A stretch of DNA of 64,000 nucleotides. Origin: Neelides folsomi (lineage: Eukaryota > Arthropoda > Collembola > Neelipleona > Neelidae). This document shows positions 1,943 through 31,254 of the stretch, one piece after another. The position numbers were made by a program, and so were the translations under genes. How positions within the stretch are numbered: position 1 is the first letter of the stretch; every line of letters begins with the position of its first letter. A model generated the notes under the pieces. It did no database searches and was not told the origin of the DNA. It saw only the letters and a program-made list of their open reading frames with translations. The stretch is from contig JAQGBZ010000095.1 in assembly GCA_034687125.1 (NCBI GenBank), positions 62,001 through 126,000 of the forward strand, read 5' to 3'.

Positions 1943-4900
1943 ATGAGGGAAATGTGTTCAAAAATTCGTAAAGGAATGTTGCCGGTGGACGTCGACGGGA
2001 AGGCAAATTACTTTTCTCCTAATAACCCTTTGCCAAATCTCGGGTCTACTTCTCCCACCGGAGCTGCAATGAAGGCTAAAAAACAAAAGTAATTATTTGA
2101 TACCTTTTACATAAATAAATAATTCATTAATTATTAAAATTAAGTCAATTATAATATTTAATAAAATTAAAGAATAAACGATTGACATTTTTGAACACAT
2201 ACATATGTAGATAATATACATTTTCATTGTTTCAATAATAATAATAATAATTAATAGTATATAAATATCGTTTTAAATGATATCTGCTACCATTACCTTT
2301 CTTTATATTTCTTTTGCCCGACATTGGGCTGAAAGGACGATTCCAATTGAATGGAGATAATGAGAGTGAATTTTGAAAGATAGGCAAAATAGTAGATTTG
2401 AGATATGTGTATATACCTACTTAGGATCATCACTCATCAGATTTTCAAACAAGTTTATGAGACTCATGACTAATTGTAATAGGAATGACTTGAGAAAGAA
2501 CCATAAATACTGTACATAGCATATGCAAGTACATATAAGTTGATAATTTTAAATATGCACATTCAATCTTATTGAAACACACATTTTTGTCTCGAATAGA
2601 AAATACACAGGAATGTCTTATCCCGTAAATAAAAACTTACAATTATACCATTACAATTAGAGTAAAAGCTACATAATACCCAACAATATTTTATAATATC
2701 AATAACTAACCAATCCAGTATATTATAATAATATAAATACCTAAATCATATCAGAATTGAGAATTAATCACTGATTGTAAGAGTGAGATTATTTTTTATA
2801 ATATATAAAATATCAACTATTGGGAATCGTCCAGAGTGAGTCATTTATATACATAACTAGTTTTGCAGCAGATTATCAGACGGATTCAGGTATAAATTCC
2901 TTAAGTTAAATTATTTAATGCAGTTTATTATTTTATTAAATAATTACAAATATTAATTATTTTTATTAATCAAGTTATTAACGACATTTTTATTGATTTC
3001 CAGATTTGCTCGAATTTACTTGTGCAAATTTTGTAAAAAGACTTTTACAAATGAATCAGCACTCTCAAACCATGAAATTGAATTTCATAACAGTAAACTC
3101 AACAAACCAGTGAATGTGCTCAGAATTGTTCGGAAACTTCCGAAAGACAAACGAATCCTTGTCGAACATGGCGACTACGGCCCTTCGTCACGACGTTTCC
3201 TGACCATCCCTCTCCAACGTGTTCCTCCCAATCCACCGCCTAGTCCATTCAAAGGGTTAATTTTTTGTCCACGGTGTCCACGATCGTTTTTTCAATCAAT
3301 TCCGCTCATACGCCATTTACAACTAGCTCATTTTCAAAGTGAAAAGAAAGAGGAAACGAAAAGCTCAATCCTTCAGGACAAGACAGAAAACAGCGACCAA
3401 ATGCCCCTAATCTGCAAAAAATGTGATACTCCTTTCGGTAAATATTTTTCATATACCAGCCATGTCAAGAAGTGCCTTATTGAGAATCCACGGGAGTCAA
3501 ATGCCACTCAACTCACTCAAGTCCCAGTCCCATCCCATGTCAGTCAAAGTCGGCGGAAAAGTAATGAGGTGGAATATGTTTCTGACAAGTCCGAGGACGA
3601 GGACGCGGACGATTCCGGCGACCCCGATTACTCTAGAAACAACACAAGAAAGCGGAAAAGGACATTGAGGAAGAGACGGAAAACTCGGAAAAGAGTTCTC
3701 ACAATTCCCGTACGACGCCGTCCAAAAGAAATTATTAAACAGTCCGATTCTCCAAGAAGTAATTCCATAGAGAGTTCAACGACCATTGAACTGTTAGAAA
3801 TTGAGGATTCTCCAGATGAAAAAGAAAGCCATTTGACCCCAATTATCTCAGGCCCAACATCCCCACCATGTTCATCGACATCTCCGTCCAAGTCAACATC
3901 TCTAACCGAAACAGCTTCACCGCCTTCACCGTCCACCTCAGTCATAATAATGTCATCCCCTTCAAGTCCAATGACAGAAGAAATCCTCTCCGACTACGTT
4001 CCGTCCGATTGCGAAGACGAAAAACAGACCCTCTTTGGAGAAATTGCCTACGACATCCGGAACCGGAGAAAAACAATGCAAATGGCTGCTTTGGAACAAA
4101 ATATCTCTGCACAAAAGTTGAGAACAATGCTTTTGTCCTTTGGCTTTGCAATAAAAAAGATCCCTTTAGACCAACTCCCTCCGGCCACCGTAATCCCGCT
4201 CAACTTTAATGAAACAAGTGCTAGGTGTTCTATTAAACATAAACAAATTAAGGAAATTAGGAAACGCGGAAGGCCAAGAAAACACCCTCTTCCAGATCCA
4301 CCCCAGACGCAACACTCACCAAACCGAGTGAGTTTCAACAACAACTTTCAAGGTCAAAGGTCAAAAACTGTCCTAGAGAGCAAAAATGGTGAATTCCTAA
4401 TACTCACAATCGATGACAGCAATGGGAGCGAAATGGAGAATCCAAGGAACAATTTCGTAAAGAGTGAGATCGAAGAGAAGAAGAAAGTTGGAAGAAAACG
4501 ATATCCAATCAGAGTTGACCGAGAAGCCTTGAAGCGAGCCATAATGTCCAAAGAGTCCATTAAAAGCATTTCTCGACGATTTGACCTTCCCTATTATGTG
4601 GTCAGAAGGGTGAGAAATGACGAAACTCCGTGTCCACCAACGTCCACTAGTCCAAACGATGTCGCCTTTAGCTCAATCGTTCAAATTCAAAATCCGCGTC
4701 CGATGCCAATACCTGTACAAAACGGCTACTACAAGGTAATGGATTAAATAAACTTACATTTACTTTTATAGTATTTCGTTAATTTATAGATAGTATTTAA
4801 ATACAGTAGTCTCCGGATGTAATGAATTTGAAGGGACCGGCCATTTTAATTCATTAAAACCGAAGTTCATTATATCAGGAGTATTGAATTTAATTAATGA

Positions 4901-6931
4901 AAATATCTTTATATGAATAGGAGTTAAGAAAATAGGGCTAAACGGTAAATAAAGGTTTAAAAAGAATTGATTTATTGTTTAAAATAATCTGTAATTGATG
5001 TTTAACGACGAGAAATTACAATTTTCTTTAGTATTTCACTTTCCATTTCTCCCAACAAATTAATTAAAGATTCGCACCTATCATTATCATCAATATTACA
5101 CATTAACCAACTTCTAAGACTATTCACACATTGAACTGCTTCATGAGAAGTTGTGATGGTCGGATCTTCTGTAATTTCGTCTTCCTCCTCTGAAACAAGG
5201 TTTTCGTCCTGTAAACTTTTAATTATTTCATCATCTGAAAAATCTCTCGTGTTTCAATGTCATTATCGAATGATTCAAAGTAGTTATTGTACCATTGACA
5301 ATATTAAATTTGGCACATATAACCTTTCTCTCTACTTTATTATCTAACATTTCAAAAATCTTAGCCTTACCCTTTAAACTTAATTGAGTTCTCGTTTGTT
5401 TAGACATTTTAAGTTTGTAAATGATTTAATTCAAACTTAGATTTAAACTGAACACGTTTTATCAAGAATCCGTACATCCAGGCGCACAAAAAGTTCATTA
5501 TATAACGAGTAGTGCTTTGGGGGGATTTCAAATTCATTCATTATAGCCGAAGTTTCATTACAACAGAAGTTCATTATATCAGAGCCTTTTAGCATTATAT
5601 AGCCTATCTTTTTGCCGGGACTTCTTAATATCATTCATTATAACCGAATTTTCATTACATCCGGATTCATTACAAAAGGATTCCACTGTAGTTTAAGTAA
5701 ATCATTTTTTTAAATGTTTTTTATATTCTGTTTAGTATAATCATTATCTTGGGACGAAAATGCTTCGGAAGTCAGTAAAGAAAAGTTCACTAATTTGGAA
5801 GAAATTTAATCATTTGCGGTATCGACGTTTCATTAAGATTCCAAACAGCTCTGCTCCTTTCTCCAGATTCAATATCAAAACATTGATGGTCAATGCCGCC
5901 AAACGACATAGAATCTTTTGTTCACCTGCCAAAAAGCTACTGAATTATAGTAAATATATCCGGAAATTCCAAGTGATGAAACACAAATTGAATAGAGTTC
6001 TTAGAAGCGAAGACATTTCAAAAATGTAATTATTGATTTACTAACCATAATTCTAAATTAAATATCATTAAATTAACCATTTTTGTAAAGTGAAGAATAA
6101 AATATTTCATATCGAAAATTATGTTTCTTGTTAGAATGGGATTGAACCCGGATGAAGTATCAACTGAGGAATCAGACGAAGAGATTCTTGAAGAAGACTG
6201 CAGTGGTGAGCTGAGGGTTTTGTCGTATTACTGCAACGATTGCAGAAGATATTTCTCAACATTGAAACGGCTCCAAATTCACAATCGCAATCTTCATTCT
6301 CATCTAATATCAAGGTTCGTCTAAATAAGATTTTAATTCTGATAGTATTACATAATATTTACTAATTCTTAATTTTTAGTTAACTCATTAATTTTATATT
6401 TTAAACAGTGGAAGCTTTCACACAGGAGAAACACAAATCACAAATGACCTCCCCGATGGAATGATTAGATGTGAATTTTGTGATGTTCCTTGTCTCATGG
6501 ATTCACTAGAAGACCATTATTTCATTAGTCATTATAAGGAGATGTTGAATGAATCAACTGACCAAGAAAATCTTCTCCGTCCTAATCAAAACGAACCAAG
6601 TGAGTTGGATAATGAGTTCATCGAAGGCCAGACGTCGACAATCGAATTAAAAAATGCGTTTATTCCACCTACTCCCGTCCCCTTTGTTGACTTGGACCAC
6701 GGGAGCGTTTGGGAAGTCGAGGACGAAGCATTAGGAGGCGATGAAAGAAAATATTTTTATTCTAATTGCGATTGCAGCATGAGGAACGCATTTCCAAATG
6801 AGCAAATGAGAGATGAACATAAAGAAATTGTCCATGGTTCTCGTCCATTTTTACGCTTGGAAGACTTTGGAACTCGTTTTAATTTTACGAAAACGGCTCA
6901 AGTTAAATTGGACAGATTTCAATTCCGATGA
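1943..6931 (+). CDS. C2H2 zinc-finger / AT-hook / psq-like HTH nuclear protein (multi-exon)
   Basis: Modelled exons are 1943-2088, 2869-2889 (a 21-nt microexon), 3004-4735, 5736-6025, 6135-6314 and 6409-6931, giving 963 codons plus stop. Every junction has AG and GT and keeps the frame; the 6314 donor (GTTCGT) is the weakest. Fingers: C63-x2-C-x12-H-x4-H; a second at about 144-165 (FCPRC...H-x4-H); a C2HC-like one at 193-213; one at about 763 (CNDC); one at about 811 (CEFC). An AT-hook (KRGRPRKH) lies near residue 475. A helix-turn-helix-like block at about 553-594 (SIKSISRRFDLPYYVVRRV) resembles the psq/CENP-B N-terminal fold. Acidic and Ser/Pro-rich linkers lie between. It is probably a nuclear DNA-binding protein; I recognise no specific ortholog. 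Alternatively it is two genes, one ending at the read-through stop at 4747 and one starting at the ATG at 5760. Confidence 0.7.
4804..5688 (-). mobile_element. Non-autonomous pogo/Tigger-like DNA transposon, internally deleted
   Basis: The 885-bp element begins CAGTAGTCTCCGGATGTAAT and ends, read on the other strand, CAGTGGAATCC...CCGGATGTAATGAA. It is flanked by TA on both sides (4802-4803 and 5689-5690), as expected for the Tc1/mariner superfamily. Subterminal copies of TTCATTAtAnC-type motifs recur in both orientations. On the minus strand two transposase remnants remain. One starts at 5407 (MSKQTRTQLSLKGKAK) and matches the psq/CENP-B-type N-terminal HTH. The other is an acidic C-terminal tail ending at 5002 (TSHEAVQCVNSLRSW near its end). 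The catalytic DDE core between them is gone and the frame breaks, so the copy is dead. In the single-gene model it lies in the intron 4736-5735 of the zinc-finger gene. Confidence 0.75.
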
Positions 6932-8498
6932 TACGAATCTCTAATCAACTAATTGTAAAATATTTATATTCGCATTAGTTTTACAATAATTGTTATTTAA
7001 TCATATCTTGTCAATTAATGGTTAATGTCAGATGAATTAATTATCCCATTTCCATTTTAATCATGAATTTGTGTTATTATTCTTACACTAATTTTTATTT
7101 TTTATTACCTATAAATGGTTAATATATAATATTCAAATGATCCCATATTCCATTTGAGAAAAAATATATTCTATGAATTTGTTATGGCTAGTGTTAAACG
7201 CGTGGTTCCAGTATGTACAGAGATTTAATTATGTAATTACATATAAAGTTATCTTAATAAATTGTTATCAAGTCGATACGAAATCCTTTATCCAATTTTA
7301 AGAAAATCGTATTTTTGATTTATCGTGGATAATAAAAAATATATGATATATTACATTTATATGGTAATTTATCCATCTTCTGTGTTGTGTCCGATGAATT
7401 AATTCTTGGTACGGTTGTTTACAATGTAATAAAGTTCAATTTTTTATATTAAGTATAACATACCTATATGTGAGAGTGTTTTATAAGTTGTCAGTTATTT
7501 AAGACGTTGAATTGAAGTAACCTATATTTAATATTTTAATTCCTATATTTAATATTTCATTAGTTTTAATTTATTTTACATAACTGGAATTGAAATTTAA
7601 CAAATCAATACCTATTGTTACTATTGCAAATGTGAATTATTATATTTAATATACTTTAATACTAAAAGTATATAAGGTTTAATAAACGAAGATGATGAAT
7701 TTATTCGATACTGATTTCTTTATTTTTAAAATTGCATTCATATAAAAATATATATTTTGTTTTTAAATAAATAAAATATTAATATAATTAACCAATAAGA
7801 TTATTTTATTATACAAAATGAATATACAGTATGTTCATCTCGAGATTCCATATATATATCAGGGTATACAGGGCCTTGCATATATATATATATGGTTTTT
7901 ACGTATATTGTGAGATATTCCATGTTTACCTCATCCTACACATTTCAAAAGGATGCGAAGGAGAGAGAAATGAGCGGCTCCTTCTTTCAATGCCAAACTC
8001 GTTGTGCGCTTTTTATACAACAACAATCGTAATTATCTCTCGTAATTTTCACTCGGATCGGATAGGGGAAAATCGGGAGCCTCGTCCGAAGGATGGAAAT
8101 CGTTCCTCTCTAATATCACAATTAAAAATTTAGTTATGATTGAGCCACATGTCATCTTAATCATCTTAATCAAGTAATTCTTAAACCAATTCTCCAATTG
8201 AGGAAGCTTCATAAAAAGCTTATTCCTATTTAAATTCAATTTTACTCTAAAATTAATAAAAACATTTTTAGATTGCATCACACAGTGGAACAACTCCGGT
8301 GATACAATTTTAGAATTCCTCTACTTTTGCACCATATTTGCAATAATTAACGGTATGTCCTCCCACAATGATTTGTAAATATTTTATCAGCTTCAAACAA
8401 CTCAACTATTTAATAATTTTGGAACACTTTATTATTTTCGTTCGAACAATTGGCTTCATATTTATTTATTTTCAAATATTCACTATCATAATTAACAG
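6932..8498. other. Intergenic: 3' UTR, poly(A) signal, simple repeats, upstream region of second zinc-finger gene
   Basis: A candidate poly(A) signal AATAAA lies at 7256-7261, downstream of the stop at 6931. Short AT dinucleotide runs occur around 7850-7893. The ATG of the next gene at 8499 directly follows an AG with a weak pyrimidine stretch (aattaacag), so a 5' UTR intron may end there. The open frames in this stretch look random. Confidence 0.45.
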
Positions 8499-11400
8499 AT
8501 GGACCTTGATCTCGATGGGCTTGGAATCCCACTGAAGAGGGAAGAAGCTCGCCAAGATGGTGCTTGGAATTCAATTTCAACGGTGTATGCTGGCCTCGAG
8601 TTCGACCCGAATCAACCGATTCAAGAGTCAATAATAGGAACCGATGGTCAACCTTACAATCCTTTTCCACCACCTGAACAATATGCATACGGGAATGACT
8701 ATTACAACAATGGCCAATACAATTCTTCTCCTGCTCATGATATCCATCATGGTTCAGGACCTCCAGTACCACCCTATTTCTCACCACACCATTCGAGTCC
8801 TCATCATCAGCAGAATTCTCAAGATGGTTTCTATTCTCCACAACCACCACCATTTGTCCCAACCTTCTCAGGAATTCCATCCCACACACCTGAAAGACTT
8901 CCCAATAGTGAACCTTTAATTGTCACATCACCTTCATACGTGGCAGCGACGAGTCAAACTTATTCAACTAGCCCTTACAGTATTCCACCAACACACTATT
9001 CTCAACAACAGACCATGAGCCCAACGTATGCTCCATTGAACTCACATAATCCGATTTCCTTTACTCCTCCTCATCAGCCATATCCTCAATCTTATTCTTC
9101 ATCTCCAACTCAAAATTTCAATTATCAGTATCAACCTCCTCATCCTTCTTCTCCGACTGGGACTCCTCTTCACGGAAATAACACTGGAGGAAATTACTCA
9201 CAATCAGACATTAATAATTCTCCGACTTCTTCCATGTCAAATGGATATTCCCAATACCCACAATACACACAGCTTGCCCCACCACCATCGTCTTCGACTC
9301 CTGCAGGATCATTGAGTTTGAATGGAGATGTTGAAAAGGTTGTGAAAGTGAAGAAAGGCCGAGGCCCAAATAAAAAAAATAAAGATAGGCCGAAATTTGA
9401 GCTTGAACCAATTCCAATGGCCGATCCAAATAAAGTTAAGTGCCCACAATGTGAAAAGATATTAAGTAAAGGTTCCTTCCCCAGTCATAAAATGATCCAC
9501 TCTGGAGAAAAACCCCACAAATGTGAAGATTGTGATAGATTTTTCCGGCAAATGTTTCAACTCCGCCTTCATCGCTCTCGAAAACACACGGTCGGGAAGG
9601 ATCACAAATGCGAAATTTGTTCAATGTGTTTCAAACTTGGCGATGCCCTGAAACGTCACTTGCTCACTCACAATGAGCCAATTGTTGCTCATTGTAAAAT
9701 CTGCAAAGCTCCTTTTAACAATAAGCGTTCTGCGACTCTTCACCAGAAGGAAGTTCATTCTCGTAGGGAGAATGCGGAAAATGTTAAAGGAATTCCCATA
9801 TCAGATCCATCAGTCAAAGTGAAATTGTCGAGGGAAGAAAAACGTATTCGTCTGTTGAGGAAGGTCGAAGAGGACGAAAGAGTCAAGAAGGATAAAATCA
9901 TTGGACTTAAGGCTGAATGTTTGGGACGATCGGTGAAAGTGTTAATCGAAAGGATCCCCCAAGACCAATTTGACAAATTGTTGATCAGGGCAAAAGAACT
10001 ACAAATCGAGCTTGAGAATTCCTTGGAGAAGGCAAAGGAAGTAAAAGAGACGGCGGCGAACCTGAGTTGTAAACATTGTGGTGATTCTTTTTCTGCCACG
10101 TATCAATTACTTGACCATTTGAAGATCCATCGGAAAGGAGAAGAAAAAACCAACAGTATGAGTAATGTAAGACATAAATATTCCCATGGGCTTAGCTGTG
10201 GTACGGGCAATGGGTATACAATAAAATACAATATGTAATTTAAATGCACTCTTGAGCTCAAGTTTCCTCTCTCCTAACTTATACCATAAAAAAGGGAATG
10301 TGAATGATAATATGAAAAATCTATTTCAATCTTATGGTGTAATTTTGGGTAGATAAATAATTTCAAATCTTTCATTACCTGCCCAGCTATGTTCATAAAT
10401 TCTTATTGGAAAAATTATCTAACATTTTCATTATCTAAAATTTCAGATGAGGAAGAAGAACCCGAGTCCCAAGATGAGAGTTTCAACGAGACTTCAAAAG
10501 ACCAATCAGTAAAAATAGGAATTTCGTTAAATCTTCCTTCTCCCAACGAGATTGTCATAGAAGAAGGGAAACCAGCAAAATTAAGTATTGAACCCAAGTC
10601 AAAATCGATCTTACATGAGCTGAATAAAAAGAAACCAAATGTTTGTAATATTCATTCAAATCTAAAGGAAAAAGTGGAAACTCCAATTAAAAAATCTTCT
10701 CAACTGTCAAATAAATTAAATTCGAATTTCCCACAATCAGATAAAACGAATATGTCTTCCACTATGTCACCAGATTCAGTCAACAGCGTAGATGTTCCTA
10801 TTAACTCACGGGGAATTCGAAGAGCCGCAATGGAAAATAAACTGGTCAAAACCAAACCCCTTCGTTTCAAACCTCCCGAAGTGCCCGAGCTCGAAGCGGC
10901 CCCCAAAGCTCAAATATCGAAGAAATCTACAACACCCAAATTGATGCCCCTTTTCGAAGCATCATTGAAATCCTCAGTTCAAAAAGACATTGCCAAGGGC
11001 AGGTCAACATTCAAAATAGTTCCTATTGAATCTCCGGATCACCGACGACGCGATAGGAGGAATAAACAATTGGAGAAAAAATATTTACCAGGCCCTGCAT
11101 CCCAGAAAAGGAAAGTCATTGAAGAAATTACAATTGATTCGTCCGAAAGTGAAGGAGAACCTACACCTAAAAAAGTTGTTAAGAAGCCACCTTCAAATCC
11201 AAGTAAAGTTCAATCTATCCCATTAAAAAGTCAATCTGTGAAAACGGTCAATGTTAAATTAATTGATACCGCTAAGAAACCTGTCATTAAATTAAGTCGA
11301 ATGACTTCAGATATAATGAAAAACTTAGTAAAAAAGAGATTAGGCGTCAACACCGAGAGCAATGTTGAGGATTTAAAAGAAACTTCAGAGGAAAGTGTAG

Positions 11401-14400
11401 AGGAAGAAGGCGGAGAAGAAAAAAGTCCATTGAGGAGATCTGGAAGAAATTCAATACAGTTGTCAGCTAATATCCCTCTAAAATCGAAAAAAAATAATAA
11501 GGGAAAGAAATCGAAAACAAGGAAAGAGCCAACAAATGAATCCCAGCAGGAAAAAGAATCATTAGAAATCGATTCACAGTCTGAAATATCCGAAAAAGTT
11601 TTCCAAACTGAAAAATCTGAAAAACAATTCCAATCGGGAAAGGAATCTCAATCAGAAACTGACTCTGAAATTATGGTGCGACAAATTAGAATAATAAATA
11701 TTGAAGAAGAAATTCCAAACCCTCCTTCCAATGAGTCAATCATGTCATTAAATAGTGAATTAAAAGAATTCGAAGAAAAGGAAATTACGATAACAACAGT
11801 TCGATCTCTTAAAGAAGATAAAGAATCGGACTTAATTCATTTCCCAGTTGACTCGAGACCAGCTTCCCCGAGCCTTATTAAAGAAGAAGACTTTCTAAGC
11901 ATGAAGGAAGTTGATAAAGAAGAACCTAAAGAAATCACAGAATCAACTAATGAGACCAACATTGAAGAAATTGAAATCAAGGCAGAAATGAAACAAGAAT
12001 TGAATTCGAGCACAGAATTAAATGACAACCTTACAGAGGAAGATGAAGCCGATGAAGAAATTAAAAAAGAGACAAATGAAGAGGATAAAAATCCACAAAT
12101 AAAAATTGAAGCAAATGAAATCAAGGAACAAATTGAAATCAACTCAAAGGTAAAAGTTTCCCTCACCCCTGTCAAAATCAACCTGGAGAAATTGGACGAA
12201 GCGACGCTGAAGGCCCAAATGGTTATTAACAATAATTGGCGAGAGAAGGTGAGAAAAGAAAAACAAAAGCGAAAAAAGAATCTCATCCCATTTAGCAAAC
12301 AACAGCAAGAGAACGAGGCAAAAGTGAAAGAAATGATGAAAAAAATGCAATGTTCTTATTGCTTTCGAACCTTCGACTTACCCCAAGCCTTGAAAAATCA
12401 TTTAAAGTGTATTCACAAGGAATTTGGGTTCTTTGCCGTTAGCAATCAATACAAAGAAGTTGAATGTAAAACTTGTGGAAAATTTTTCTCTCAGGCCTCA
12501 TCCCTTGCACGGCACAATACCGTTTCCCATTTGAAAATATTGGAAAAATGCAAATTTTGCAAATGGAGTTTTAATACTTTCTATATGAAAACTCACGTCA
12601 AAATAGTCCACGAAAGGGAAAAGCCATTTATGTGCCAATTTTGTGGGAAGATGTTCGCTCTGTCAAACTATCTAAATATTCATTTAGCCCAAAATCACTC
12701 AAAACAATTTGAAAATGAAAATGAACTTTTGGTGTACAAAATTATAAATCCAGTACGGAAATTTCGAAAACCGAGGCGAAAATTTGTTGAGCCTCCAACT
12801 CCTCCACCTGAACCAGAGCCAGAACCAGATCCAGAACCAGAGACTGAACCTGCAAAGACAGAGGAACAATCTGAATTAAATCAAGAGAATGATTCGACTA
12901 CTCGTCGAAGAAGGCCTAGAAGAAGTGCAATTGAAATGCTCATGGAAAAACCTAAAATTAAAACTGGTGGGAGAGGGAGCCAAGGAAGGAGATTAGGAAG
13001 GCCGAGAAAATATCCTCGTCCACTTTCGCCAAGCTCAAATGAAGAAGGGAAAAAGGTAACTAGACGGAAAAAAGATGTTTTTTCATCAAGCGAAGAAGAA
13101 GTGATAAAGAAGAAAGGTCGGCCGCGGGGAAGGCCACCAAAAAATCCACGTACGAGTGAGGGAGAAGAAGATAAAAAGAAGGTGACTCGACGGAGGAGGA
13201 AGAAAACTCCTGTTGATTCGGAAGATGAAGAAGAGAAAGATGAAGAGAAAAAGGAGAAAATAGAGAAAGATGAGAAAGAAAAGAAGGGGAAGTATATGCA
13301 TCATCTCACTAGAATGAAACTTGAAAGACCAGAAGAATTTAAAGCAATGTGGAAAAGGCGAAATGAAACGAGACTTGCAAGAATTAAACGGGAAAGGGAA
13401 ATACGAGTTGAGGCAGTTAAAAAACGATATGAGATGATGAAAGAACGGGATGAAAAAATTGAGGCTCGAATTAAAGCGCTTGAAAATGATGAAGAAGCTT
13501 CGAGTGATGAGGAAGGAGGTGGGAAAAGAATAAGCATAGATGAAAAGATGAGAATGAAAGAAGCAATTGATGTCATGGAGGGAAAAGATCCAAATGATCT
13601 TGGAAGCAAATTCATTATGTAAGATCTTAAATAATTAAACAAAAATATTGTATATTTAATATTATATATTAGTAGATAAATAAATATTAATATTACGATA
13701 ATTATTTAATTTACTGATGATTTAAATTTTAGGCCGGATGATGGAGATTCGAGTAAAAATTATGAAATTCGGCGACAGAGCTGTCGGGAGAAAACGCAAA
13801 AAAGATCAGTAAATTATGCCAACAGTTGGTACACGAGAAGGAGATTCTATGCAACTACAACTCCGGAATCTCCGAAAGAAATAATGGGAAAAGGCACAGA
13901 GAAAACCGATGAGGAAAGGATCAAATGCCGATTTTGTTACAGGAAGTTTCTGACTGATGCCGAGGCTTCAGCCCACTTGGACTATCACAAAGATGACAAG
14001 TTTAATTGCCCAGCATGCGGGCACAAATTCAGTCACAAACATCGACTCAAAACTCATTTTGGCCGAGTTCATAAAACTATAAAAATGCCAGAATTTTTAA
14101 ACATTCACGGTGCAACGGAAGAAGACGATGTCGTTCGTTTCAAGATCTTTGAGGGAGAGAAGGTGGCAAGGGTTCCCAAATTAAAGTATAAATGTAAATC
14201 TTGTGAAGCAATGTTTTCCAATATCCATAAATTCAAGGCTCACGAGTTTATTCATAAGAAAACGAGCTACGGATGTACGAGATGCCCCTACAAGGCTTTT
14301 TTGCCTATCATGGTCAAGAAACATATTACTCATGCTCACGGTGGTCAAGGGTCAGTTAAAAGATTCAAAACGAAGGGTCCAGCTAAAGAGAAAGAAGGAG

Positions 14401-14897
14401 AGGAGGAAAAGAAAGAAAATGAAGTAGAAAATGAGGCTGGAGAAGAAATCGTTTTTGGGAATAGTGAAGAAATTGAGATATACAAGAAGATCATGAGTTC
14501 TGAAGATAATGTTCGGTACAATTGTGACGAATGCACGGCATCGTACAACAATACATTCAACATCACACGTCATATGTTTCGTCACCACGGTGTGACTGTG
14601 AGTTTTAAACAGATTTGCCGATGTAAAAACTGCGGAGTCACGTTTAAACAAAGGAAACATTTGTTCTTGCACGTGATTTCAAAAATATGTACGAAGGGAA
14701 GGGAAGTGGATCCGTTCTTGTGTGAGAAACCGGGATGTAACCATGTGGCCAAACACGTTGTCGATTATAGGAAGCACATTGAGGAAGCTCATGAGGAAAT
14801 TCCTAAAATGGTCCTTCGACCCAACGATGGATTCCTTCAATGTTTTAAGAAAACCCTGACAATTGATGTCCACAAGATTGAAGTGTTGAGACATTGA
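8499..14897 (+). CDS. Giant multi-C2H2 zinc-finger protein with AT-hooks (three exons)
   Basis: Exons 8499-10161, 10447-13618 and 13733-14897 join in phase (1, then 2), giving 1999 aa. Residues about 50-280 are Pro/Ser/Tyr/Gln-rich. Four fingers at about 314-421 include a TGEKP-like linker (HSGEKPHKC), and a fifth is at about 522-544. A long Glu/Lys-rich segment follows. Fingers 6-9 lie at about 1189-1308. A PEP/DPE hexanucleotide repeat is encoded at about 12806-12850. Two AT-hook clusters follow (LGRPRKYPRP near 1405; KKGRPRGRPPKNP near 1445), then a charged helical region. The last exon carries about seven more fingers from about 1675, ending with an unusual C-x4-C finger (CEKPGC). It is probably a chromatin or DNA-binding nuclear protein; I recognise no named ortholog. 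Exons 2 and 3 lack credible start codons next to coding-like sequence, which supports one gene. A poly(A) signal AATAAA is at 15003-15008. Confidence 0.78.
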
Positions 14898-15670: not shown

Positions 15671-18575
15671 TTAATCATTCCTCTTGAATTTCCTTATAGG
15701 GACTTTGCTCTTGGAGATGAAACTTCTAGAGCTTTTCTCTCCTTCCAACTTTGCAATTTGCTTCTTGAGAAATTCATATGCCATTTTCCCCTTTTCATAC
15801 AATTCAAGGGATTTGTCAAACTTTTTCTCCCTCTTCTCGAACACGACGTAGAGATAGCCTTGATTTATATATCGTACATATCATATTAGGATTAGGTATT
15901 TGTTTATAAATGAATTCCACTGATTCAAACAAGATTATATTGTATACCTAATAATAAACTTATTTTAAGAAGTAAAAATTATAAATTAGAATTATGTTAC
16001 CCAAATCGTAGATTTTGATAAGCCAGTCGTATAATACTGAAAACATAATGATACAACTTTCAAAATAATTTCAAAATTATAATATTATAGTAGTTTGGTT
16101 ATGGTGTATAATTATAAATTGATCAAAATTGAGATTGACTAAAATTACTAATAATTTTTTATTTTTTACACCTGCGGATGGAGGGAAAGCTTTGGCTATT
16201 TCATTTCTATTGAATCCTTTGCTATTGAGAACGGTGTCAACAAACTCCCGGGTGTTATCTGGTTCTAAAGCACCAGGAACCCTCATTCCTTCCAATACTC
16301 CCACAAAATTCCCTGCAAGGATTTTCTTTGATGTAGGCCAATAGTCGACTTTGAGAACTTGTTGAGCCACTCGATCAAACGTTACATGAGGCTCAATTCC
16401 TTTTAACACGCAAATAGCCTCCATTACAATCTTCACCGCTTTGGGTGGATTTCCTCGGAGGGATTTCATTGAATTGGCAGCTTTGCTTGGAACCTTGAAT
16501 TAACATTAAGAAAATCGGATTGGATAATTTCAACTATATTTAATTTGCAATTAATGTTTAATTTGCCATTAATGTTTAATTAACTTACAATTGCAGATTC
16601 CAGTGCTGATTTATACATTGCCTCAATTTCTTTAAATTCAGCATGGGCCACTTGCATTATAATTTTGGCTTCAGCGACCAATTTACCTGCTTCTTCAAAT
16701 TCCCCTTTAAGCTCAGTTAGTCGAAGACGGTCTTCGTGACTCAAATGACTCACTCCTTCGGCTTCAAGATCTCTTGCTATTTTTTCCGCTTCGCTTTTTG
16801 CCTCATTTGAAATATCTTTCAATTTGGTCATAGCATCTATTTTCTCTTGGCGGGATTGTCGGGAGACTGAGCCAGAACGTGAACCTGGACGAGAGTTGCC
16901 CAAAGTCACATCCGTTTGAGTCTCTTGGTCAATTCCGGTCAAATTTCGGATTTCGACTCCGTCTCTTAAAAGACCCGATCCCAATGTTTTTCCATTGCCT
17001 CCTTTTGCATCTTGGAGAGCTTGGGCGTCTCTTCCAAGCGAAGCCATGCTGTTTGTCAACGATCTATTAATTATTTATAACAATTTTCATTTATTTCATT
17101 TTTATACCACTTTTGAACAACTATTGAACAGATGGAAGATTGATATAAAGCTAATTATTTTTATATTATTCTTATAAAATATATTATTTTAAAAAAATTG
17201 ATTGAAATCTTTATAATACTTCATTGAGTTCTTGGCTTTGTTTTGCCATTGAACAGAAGCTCGTTTAATCCCAGCCAACTTGAGAAGACTTTTTGGAAAA
17301 AGGCTCCTATTTAAAACACGTTAATTATGAAGACATTTACCATTTATGAATTAGTTTAACATTTTATTAAGACTTTAAAATTGGCATTTAACTAAACTTA
17401 ACATGTTTAATAAACACACATAAGTTACTAAAAAACTACTATGTAGTATTTGCTATTTCACACTCACGTTATTTTTTTCTTAAGCCATGCTTTAACATTC
17501 TTTTTAATTTGTATGAGCTTAAGAAGTCCAACAGGCTGTTCTCCAGGAGCTCTCGGTCGTGTTAAATTGCTGTTAAATTAAATTATACTTTTATTAATAT
17601 TAATTAGAGTAATGATTGGTTAAATATCAGCACAGATAGTTGTAAAAATTTGATTCATTTTGAGCTCTTGCACATACTCTTTTTTGTTCTTCAACCACCC
17701 TCGTATGCTGTTTTTCATTTTAATCAGCTTTATGATGTCAATTGGTTTCCCAAACCTCGGCCGATTCAAATCAATTGATTTTCTGACAGAGATACAAAAA
17801 TTAAGCGTTTTTTCATTTCCATGAATTAAATTCTTACGTTCGTTTCATCCAGCTCTTGAAAGATCTCTTAAGTTTGATGACTTTCAAAAAGTTTGCATCC
17901 TTTCCAAATGCCCCGCAACCTTCGAGCCCGACAAGTTCTTCTAAACTCAGTTCTAGCAACGCTTCTTGAGCTTCAACTTGCTCCAAATTGCTCTTACTTG
18001 GATATTAATATTTTTATCATAATAACTTACATCATTCAACGTGAATATTACTTATGCTAATATTACACAATTAATGATAACTTAATCAATTTACCTTTTC
18101 TCAGCCCAGTCATGAATTGATTTACGGTATTTAACCACTCTATACATGTCAGGATTCGGGCCAGATGAACTAAATATACAATTGGTAATGTATTGAGTTG
18201 TTTATAAATACTGTAGATTCAAAAGCAAAATAAAACTCATAAGGAAAACAAATAATCTTTGATATACAAAATAATGTATACTAGGTATTTAGGTATACAA
18301 ACCTAAGTTCTCCACCAGTTGCCCAAAACTTGATAGCTTTTGTGACAGATTTCCGATCGAATCTTCTTCTAATTGCTTTTGGAATTGTTTTGAAGCAACT
18401 AAGGATGGGTATTTATCAGAAAATATATTTATAAAATAGAAAACAAAACAGTTATATCCCATTAACAGCATTATTCAATGAGCAATACACAAAAGGGTAC
18501 TTACTTGAGATCAATGTGAGACATCCAAATTAGCAATTGCTTGAGACGAGTCGGTTTCAAATTGAGTTGGGACAT
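15671..18575 (-). CDS. Stand-alone dynein stalk/microtubule-binding-domain protein with N-terminal W-x-x-K exon repeats
   Basis: Eleven exons (5' to 3'): 18575-18505, 18398-18303, 18169-18095, 17996-17838, 17782-17678, 17569-17468, 17306-17220, 17063-16589, 16493-16172, 16036-16001 and 15858-15671, all phase-consistent; 571 aa. Residues 1-231 hold repeated motifs such as LKVIKLKRSFKSWMK, IIKLIKMKNSIRGWLKNK and LLKLIQIKKNVKAWLKKK, one per exon. Residues 232-300 are low complexity (SRPGSRSGSVSRQSRQ). Residues 300-390 look like stalk coil 1. Residues 391-509 match the dynein heavy chain MTBD: the NPPKAVKIVMEAICVL junction, a DYWPTSKKIL helix and the LYDWLIKIYDL segment. Residues 510-571 form coil 2 and a basic tail. 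No AAA, linker or tail domains are present, and dynein heavy chains are normally about 4000 aa or more. It probably binds microtubules without motor activity, which is inferred. The Met at 18575 is the first in frame, but the frame stays open upstream. Confidence 0.75.

Positions 18576-20365: not shown

Positions 20366-31254
<10,889 letters not shown>

Follow-up and report, generated by a model that had tools for sequence, protein, structure and literature searches.

Can the microtubule-binding tip of a dynein persist in nature without the motor that works it? As far as is known, the dynein microtubule-binding domain (MTBD) forms the end of a giant ATPase, which adjusts its grip by making the stalk coils slide. 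The question is raised by a gene for a 571-residue protein in the window, the 64,000-nucleotide stretch of DNA analysed here, which forms part of contig C95. Our best reading is that this protein is a domesticated, non-motor member of a stalk family that would bind microtubules and probably cross-link them.

Rebuilt from the letters, the gene occupies 18575..15671 of the minus strand and comprises 11 exons that join in phase across 10 introns, all GT-AG and 55–161 bases long. The product has a predicted mass of 64.4 kDa and a pI of 9.9, and the stop codon lies 62 residues beyond exon 10; the length, the in-phase exons and the early stop given by the first-pass annotation thus stand. Coding GC is ~41% (GC1/2/3 0.48/0.37/0.39), compared with 21% in the introns, and the peptides NPPKAVKIVMEAICVL, DYWPTSKKIL and LYDWLIKIYDL are all found in the protein. 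Introns 1–7 are all in phase 2, so the exons are symmetric. Exon 1 (18505..18575; all exons on the minus strand) carries the start methionine behind an upstream in-frame stop and fails a strict pattern for a tryptophan (W) repeat; exon 2 (18303..18398) is basic and holds a degenerate repeat in which the tryptophan is present and the pattern failed. A W repeat is found in exons 3 (18095..18169), 5 (17678..17782), 6 (17468..17569) and 7 (17220..17306), and follows an acidic stretch in exon 4 (17838..17996). The adjoining gene (20366-21991, minus strand) encodes a kinesin motor whose best PDB match is Drosophila Klp10A (1.9e-167), followed by KIF2A/KIF2C, and which we take to be of the kinesin-13 type. 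Four long open stretches on the plus strand (2957-4747, 8496-10238, 10353-13622 and 13710-14897) match Pfam C2H2 zinc fingers, the last below the Pfam cut-off.

The remaining exons encode the dynein-like part, in which residues ~339–550 match coil 1, the MTBD and coil 2. Exon 8 (16589..17063) passes from a Gly/Ser-rich linker into stalk coil 1 at about residue 339, and exon 9 (16172..16493) completes coil 1 and contributes most of the MTBD, including NPP at residue 405 and a flap-length insert. The LYDWLIKIYDL segment of exon 10 (16001..16036) corresponds by alignment to the last MTBD helix, and exon 11 (15671..15858) supplies a short coil 2, a basic tail and the stop. A phmmer search of the PDB with the whole protein gave DNAH12 as the best match (5e-7, residues 313–521). 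At E≤1 it returned 21 sequences, 15 of them named dynein and two DHC2/DHC_N2; of the other four, three are called "AAA+ ATPase domain-containing protein" and one "putative malate dehydrogenase 1B", a chain of 4069 residues that aligns at the same stalk position as the dyneins. The reversed stalk sequence, used as a control, matched nothing at E≤1. The likeness of the C-terminal half to a dynein stalk and MTBD, first seen by eye, is therefore homology, although one route proposed for checking it gave a mixed outcome: the Pfam MT profile (PF12777) does not match the 571-residue protein at E≤1. Ordinary annotation would consequently overlook the gene. PF12777 matches two of the seven family members described below (best 4.1e-5), and its exon-by-exon search of the genome gave 15 matches, none on the contigs carrying the seven stalk genes. 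An AlphaFold2 model of exon 9 only was uninformative (pLDDT 52, pTM 0.36).

With the 571-residue protein as query, a tblastn-type search across the 840 contigs of the genome (75.1 Mb) revealed six further loci, two on C360 (C360a and C360b) and one each on C157, C486, C3 and C724. The C724 and C3 proteins, used as queries, recovered the same seven loci together with weak matches on C122 (E 0.29), C399 (E 0.17) and C89 (E 0.41). C89 was not counted, as no stalk-like exon was apparent on reading, and C399 and C122 were set aside as dynein motor genes. The family thus comprises at least seven genes on six contigs; the true number may be higher, since scoring was confined to the best candidates. 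Splicing of the stalk exons preserves the phase in all six paralogues, whose reading frames each stop after coil 2, and the aligned proteins share 25–43% identity with that of the window. A family profile matched 48 PDB sequences at E≤0.001, the best being DNAH12 (5.9e-27, profile positions 14–223 of 233); by name, 40 are dynein, three DHC/IDA heavy chain, four "AAA+ ATPase domain-containing" and one "putative malate dehydrogenase 1B". The MTBD core alone (105 positions, coils excluded) still retrieved 30 PDB sequences with the same kinds of name at E≤0.01 (best 7.8e-14). We reject chance or a coiled-coil artefact as the source of these matches, because the core without its coils finds dyneins and the reversed stalk does not. 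Pattern searches matched 10 stretches in prokaryotic genome contigs and 16 in viral contigs, none confirmed as relatives; as these sets hold prokaryotes and viruses, the misses say little. One paralogue, on C157, has a 47-base GT-AG intron within its MTBD exon (L039, reverse strand, 5510-5556) that the other six do not show.

The paralogues, and likewise the tandem exon repeat at the N-terminus, go beyond what had been claimed for this locus. Residues 1–232 of the window protein carry a net charge of +34.7. Four strict W repeats occur, against a mean of 0.55 in shuffled sequences (0.13% of 20000 shuffles had as many), for a pattern that was picked after viewing the sequence. Under a looser pattern, basic/hydrophobic residues precede a tryptophan in five of exons 1–7, in 5/5 segments of C360a and 4/6 of C157, and in none of those of C360b (0/4) or C486 (0/5). 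For C360a and C157, similar repeat exons can be joined in phase from start codon to stalk in a heuristic model with some weak donors; in C360a a very long glycine-rich linker separates the W repeats from the stalk (L037, ~2184-2520, reverse strand reading). C360b and C486 carry LAK-type basic repeats in open stretches, which we think are related to the W repeats. C724 and C3 look like the stalk alone, with upstream exons possible. A composite repeat query of the genome matched C95 and C360, gave a weak match on C128 (E 0.65) and failed to recover C157. No PDB sequence matches the basic repeats at E≤1, so any role given to them is a guess. Among the three members whose coils were analysed, coil 1 shows a clear heptad in each; the coil 2 heptad is weak in the window protein (625/2000 shuffles as good) and C360a (608/2000) and clear only in C724, which makes a short or loose hairpin possible.

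How much of the MTBD tip has been kept? According to the available text of a structural study (PMC6629372), DNAH7 carries a 13-residue insert, the flap, that contacts the adjacent protofilament. All seven stalk genes have an insert of ~13 residues relative to cytoplasmic dynein, and C122 shows a gap at that place; in the alignment C399 also carries the flap insert, and C500 has one of like length. We take the insert of the stalk genes to be the same H2-H3 flap as in DNAH7. Its residues are altered, however: the length is kept and the DPSG turn of DNAH7/12 is gone. This loss suits a reading in which the MTBD fold was retained while microtubule binding was lost or became secondary, the hairpin serving for structure or dimerisation and the W repeats binding, for example, membranes or nucleic acid. 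So do conserved residues specific to the stalk genes (FPPCAxLYDW, LPWxA) that stand in place of dynein ones, and basic W helices also suit membranes. Yet mean column identity among members is higher in the MTBD core (60%) than over the whole stalk (46%), as expected if selection keeps the tip, and we regard this reading as rather unlikely.

In a tree of the seven stalk genes and six of the seven motor genes, a branch with support of 100/99 sets all seven stalk genes apart, and they form a clade if the root lies among motor dyneins. Within it, C95, C360a and C157 group together (99/99); C399, an axonemal dynein gene of the flap class, attaches nearest to the seven, with weak support (85/80). 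The gene structures point the same way. A phase-0 intron at CILK|G is present in five of the seven stalk genes and, at the same place and phase, in C399; a phase-1 intron at the junction between the MTBD and its last helix occurs in all seven and again in C399. Among the six motor genes read (C44 left out), the CILK|G intron is common to C399 alone, the C453 motor dynein (L008) having an intron a few residues after that position, and the last-helix intron is apparently also present in C117. These common positions and phases argue that genomic exons, not an mRNA, were copied. Descent from the flap class would befit a protein that acts on axonemal dynein as a decoy or regulator, filling its sites on doublet microtubules but producing no force. 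Dynein motor domains persist on seven contigs of the genome, and from their stalk sequences we read most of these as axonemal. Against a decoy, repeat arms newly gained at the N-terminus would suit a tether better than a simple competitor, and we consider this role improbable; a non-motor tether or cross-linker remains the favoured reading.

Are the seven genes truly separate from motors? We searched the genome exon by exon, scoring best candidates, with three motor profiles: AAA_8 (AAA4, PF12780) gave 18 matches, AAA_9 (AAA5, PF12781) 19 and Dynein_heavy (the D6/AAA6 region, PF03028) nine. None lies on the six stalk-gene contigs; all are confined to C44, C66, C117, C122, C399, C453 and C500. 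In the 571-residue protein itself, hmmscan detected no AAA1-AAA3, linker or tail domain at E≤1. On the search with the three profiles we reject the view that the window gene is part of a full dynein gene. For the family as a whole, the genes could be pieces of complete dynein genes that the assembly broke up or whose other exons have diverged beyond recognition, as the search reports best candidates only and C486 and C724 are short (41.6 and 16.1 kb). Such splitting is nevertheless highly improbable, given that every member stops after a short coil 2, that three AAA families are without a match on all six contigs and that the C95 gene has a zinc-finger gene on one side and a kinesin gene on the other. 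Nor are the copies decaying pseudogenes, a reading to which we give hardly any credence: open frames and splice phases are kept in 7/7, and in 21/21 gene pairs synonymous change is saturated (pS 0.70–0.87) while pN stays at about half of it (0.35–0.53). The proteins are thus constrained, and the family is under purifying selection. Homology, the missing motor modules on the contig and this selection together bear out the earlier proposal of a stalk and MTBD detached from their motor.

We think it likely that the family, at least seven motorless proteins, derives from an axonemal dynein stalk of the flap class (DNAH3/7/12/1-like) and that its members are static proteins that tether, stabilise or cross-link microtubules. 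With less assurance, we lean towards a fuller account of a natural family in which the stalk was cut from the motor by genomic-exon copying and its members, bearing arms of tandem basic W repeats, now cross-link microtubules statically. A stretch of the genome containing the stalk exons would have been duplicated away from the motor of a flap-class dynein; the copied exons would yield a free-standing antiparallel coiled-coil hairpin with the MTBD at its tip, which then multiplied. In the window gene and its nearest kin, the hairpin would stand behind tandem exons, each encoding a tryptophan-containing basic motif that is short and helix-like. We infer that the proteins are expressed and that the MTBD sits in the intradimer cleft of tubulin, with a flap that extends to the neighbouring protofilament, as that of DNAH7 does. 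As there is no AAA ring to shift the coil register, binding would be static. The strongly basic arm (about +35 over 232 residues) may hold the acidic tails of tubulin, whether on the microtubule already bound or on a second one; the protein would thereby tether, stabilise or cross-link microtubules, perhaps in sperm. If so, these proteins would be a new kind of microtubule-associated protein. With a natural, conserved MTBD free of its motor, one could ask which register of the coils selection favours in the absence of a motor, and seven divergent copies in one genome offer a ready alignment for such work.

The closest known stalks and MTBDs are those of the flap-class inner-arm dyneins DNAH12, DNAH3, DNAH7 and DNAH1 (PDB 8j07, 9fqr, 6rza, 8i3j). 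Coil 1, the MTBD core and the start of coil 2 align with them end to end; the family also has the flap-length insert, and two of its intron positions are common to the genome's own C399 dynein. Unlike these dyneins, the stalk genes lack any AAA4, AAA5 or D6 match, run through a short coil 2 to a stop and have new N-termini. DNHD1 is a long heavy-chain-like gene. In the accessible portion of the consensus dynein nomenclature (PMC8754002) it is called an "orphan" or "ghost" dynein heavy chain gene, possibly a decaying remnant, and motorless stalk proteins find no mention there. Like DNHD1, the stalk genes are dynein-derived and stand outside working motors; unlike it, their proteins are short, constrained and present in seven copies. 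SRS-MTBD fusions made for cryo-EM, as the available text of PMC6629372 describes them, show a dynein stalk tip bound to microtubules without a motor. Both they and the family are motorless stalk tips, but the fusions are artificial, with the register locked by seryl-tRNA synthetase. Among kinesins, a domain turned non-motor would find its dynein counterpart here. Yeast Vik1 is a kinesin motor domain of this kind in which the track-binding part was kept; its fold is unrelated, and it is retained as the partner of a true motor. Titles and abstract openings in the open-access literature yielded no publication on a motorless dynein-stalk family, in line with the first-pass annotation, which knew of no described family with this layout. 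If the reading holds, the family would be the first of its kind.

The genome offered some further observations. Only seven contigs show dynein motor domains, which is few for an animal in which axonemal dyneins persist, and C122 is a cytoplasmic dynein by sequence. Two features suit an arthropod: the 39 Chitin_bind_4 profile matches in the genome and the gene order nad2-cox1-cox2-atp6 on the mitochondrial contig, where cox1 was identified by profile and the other genes by eye.
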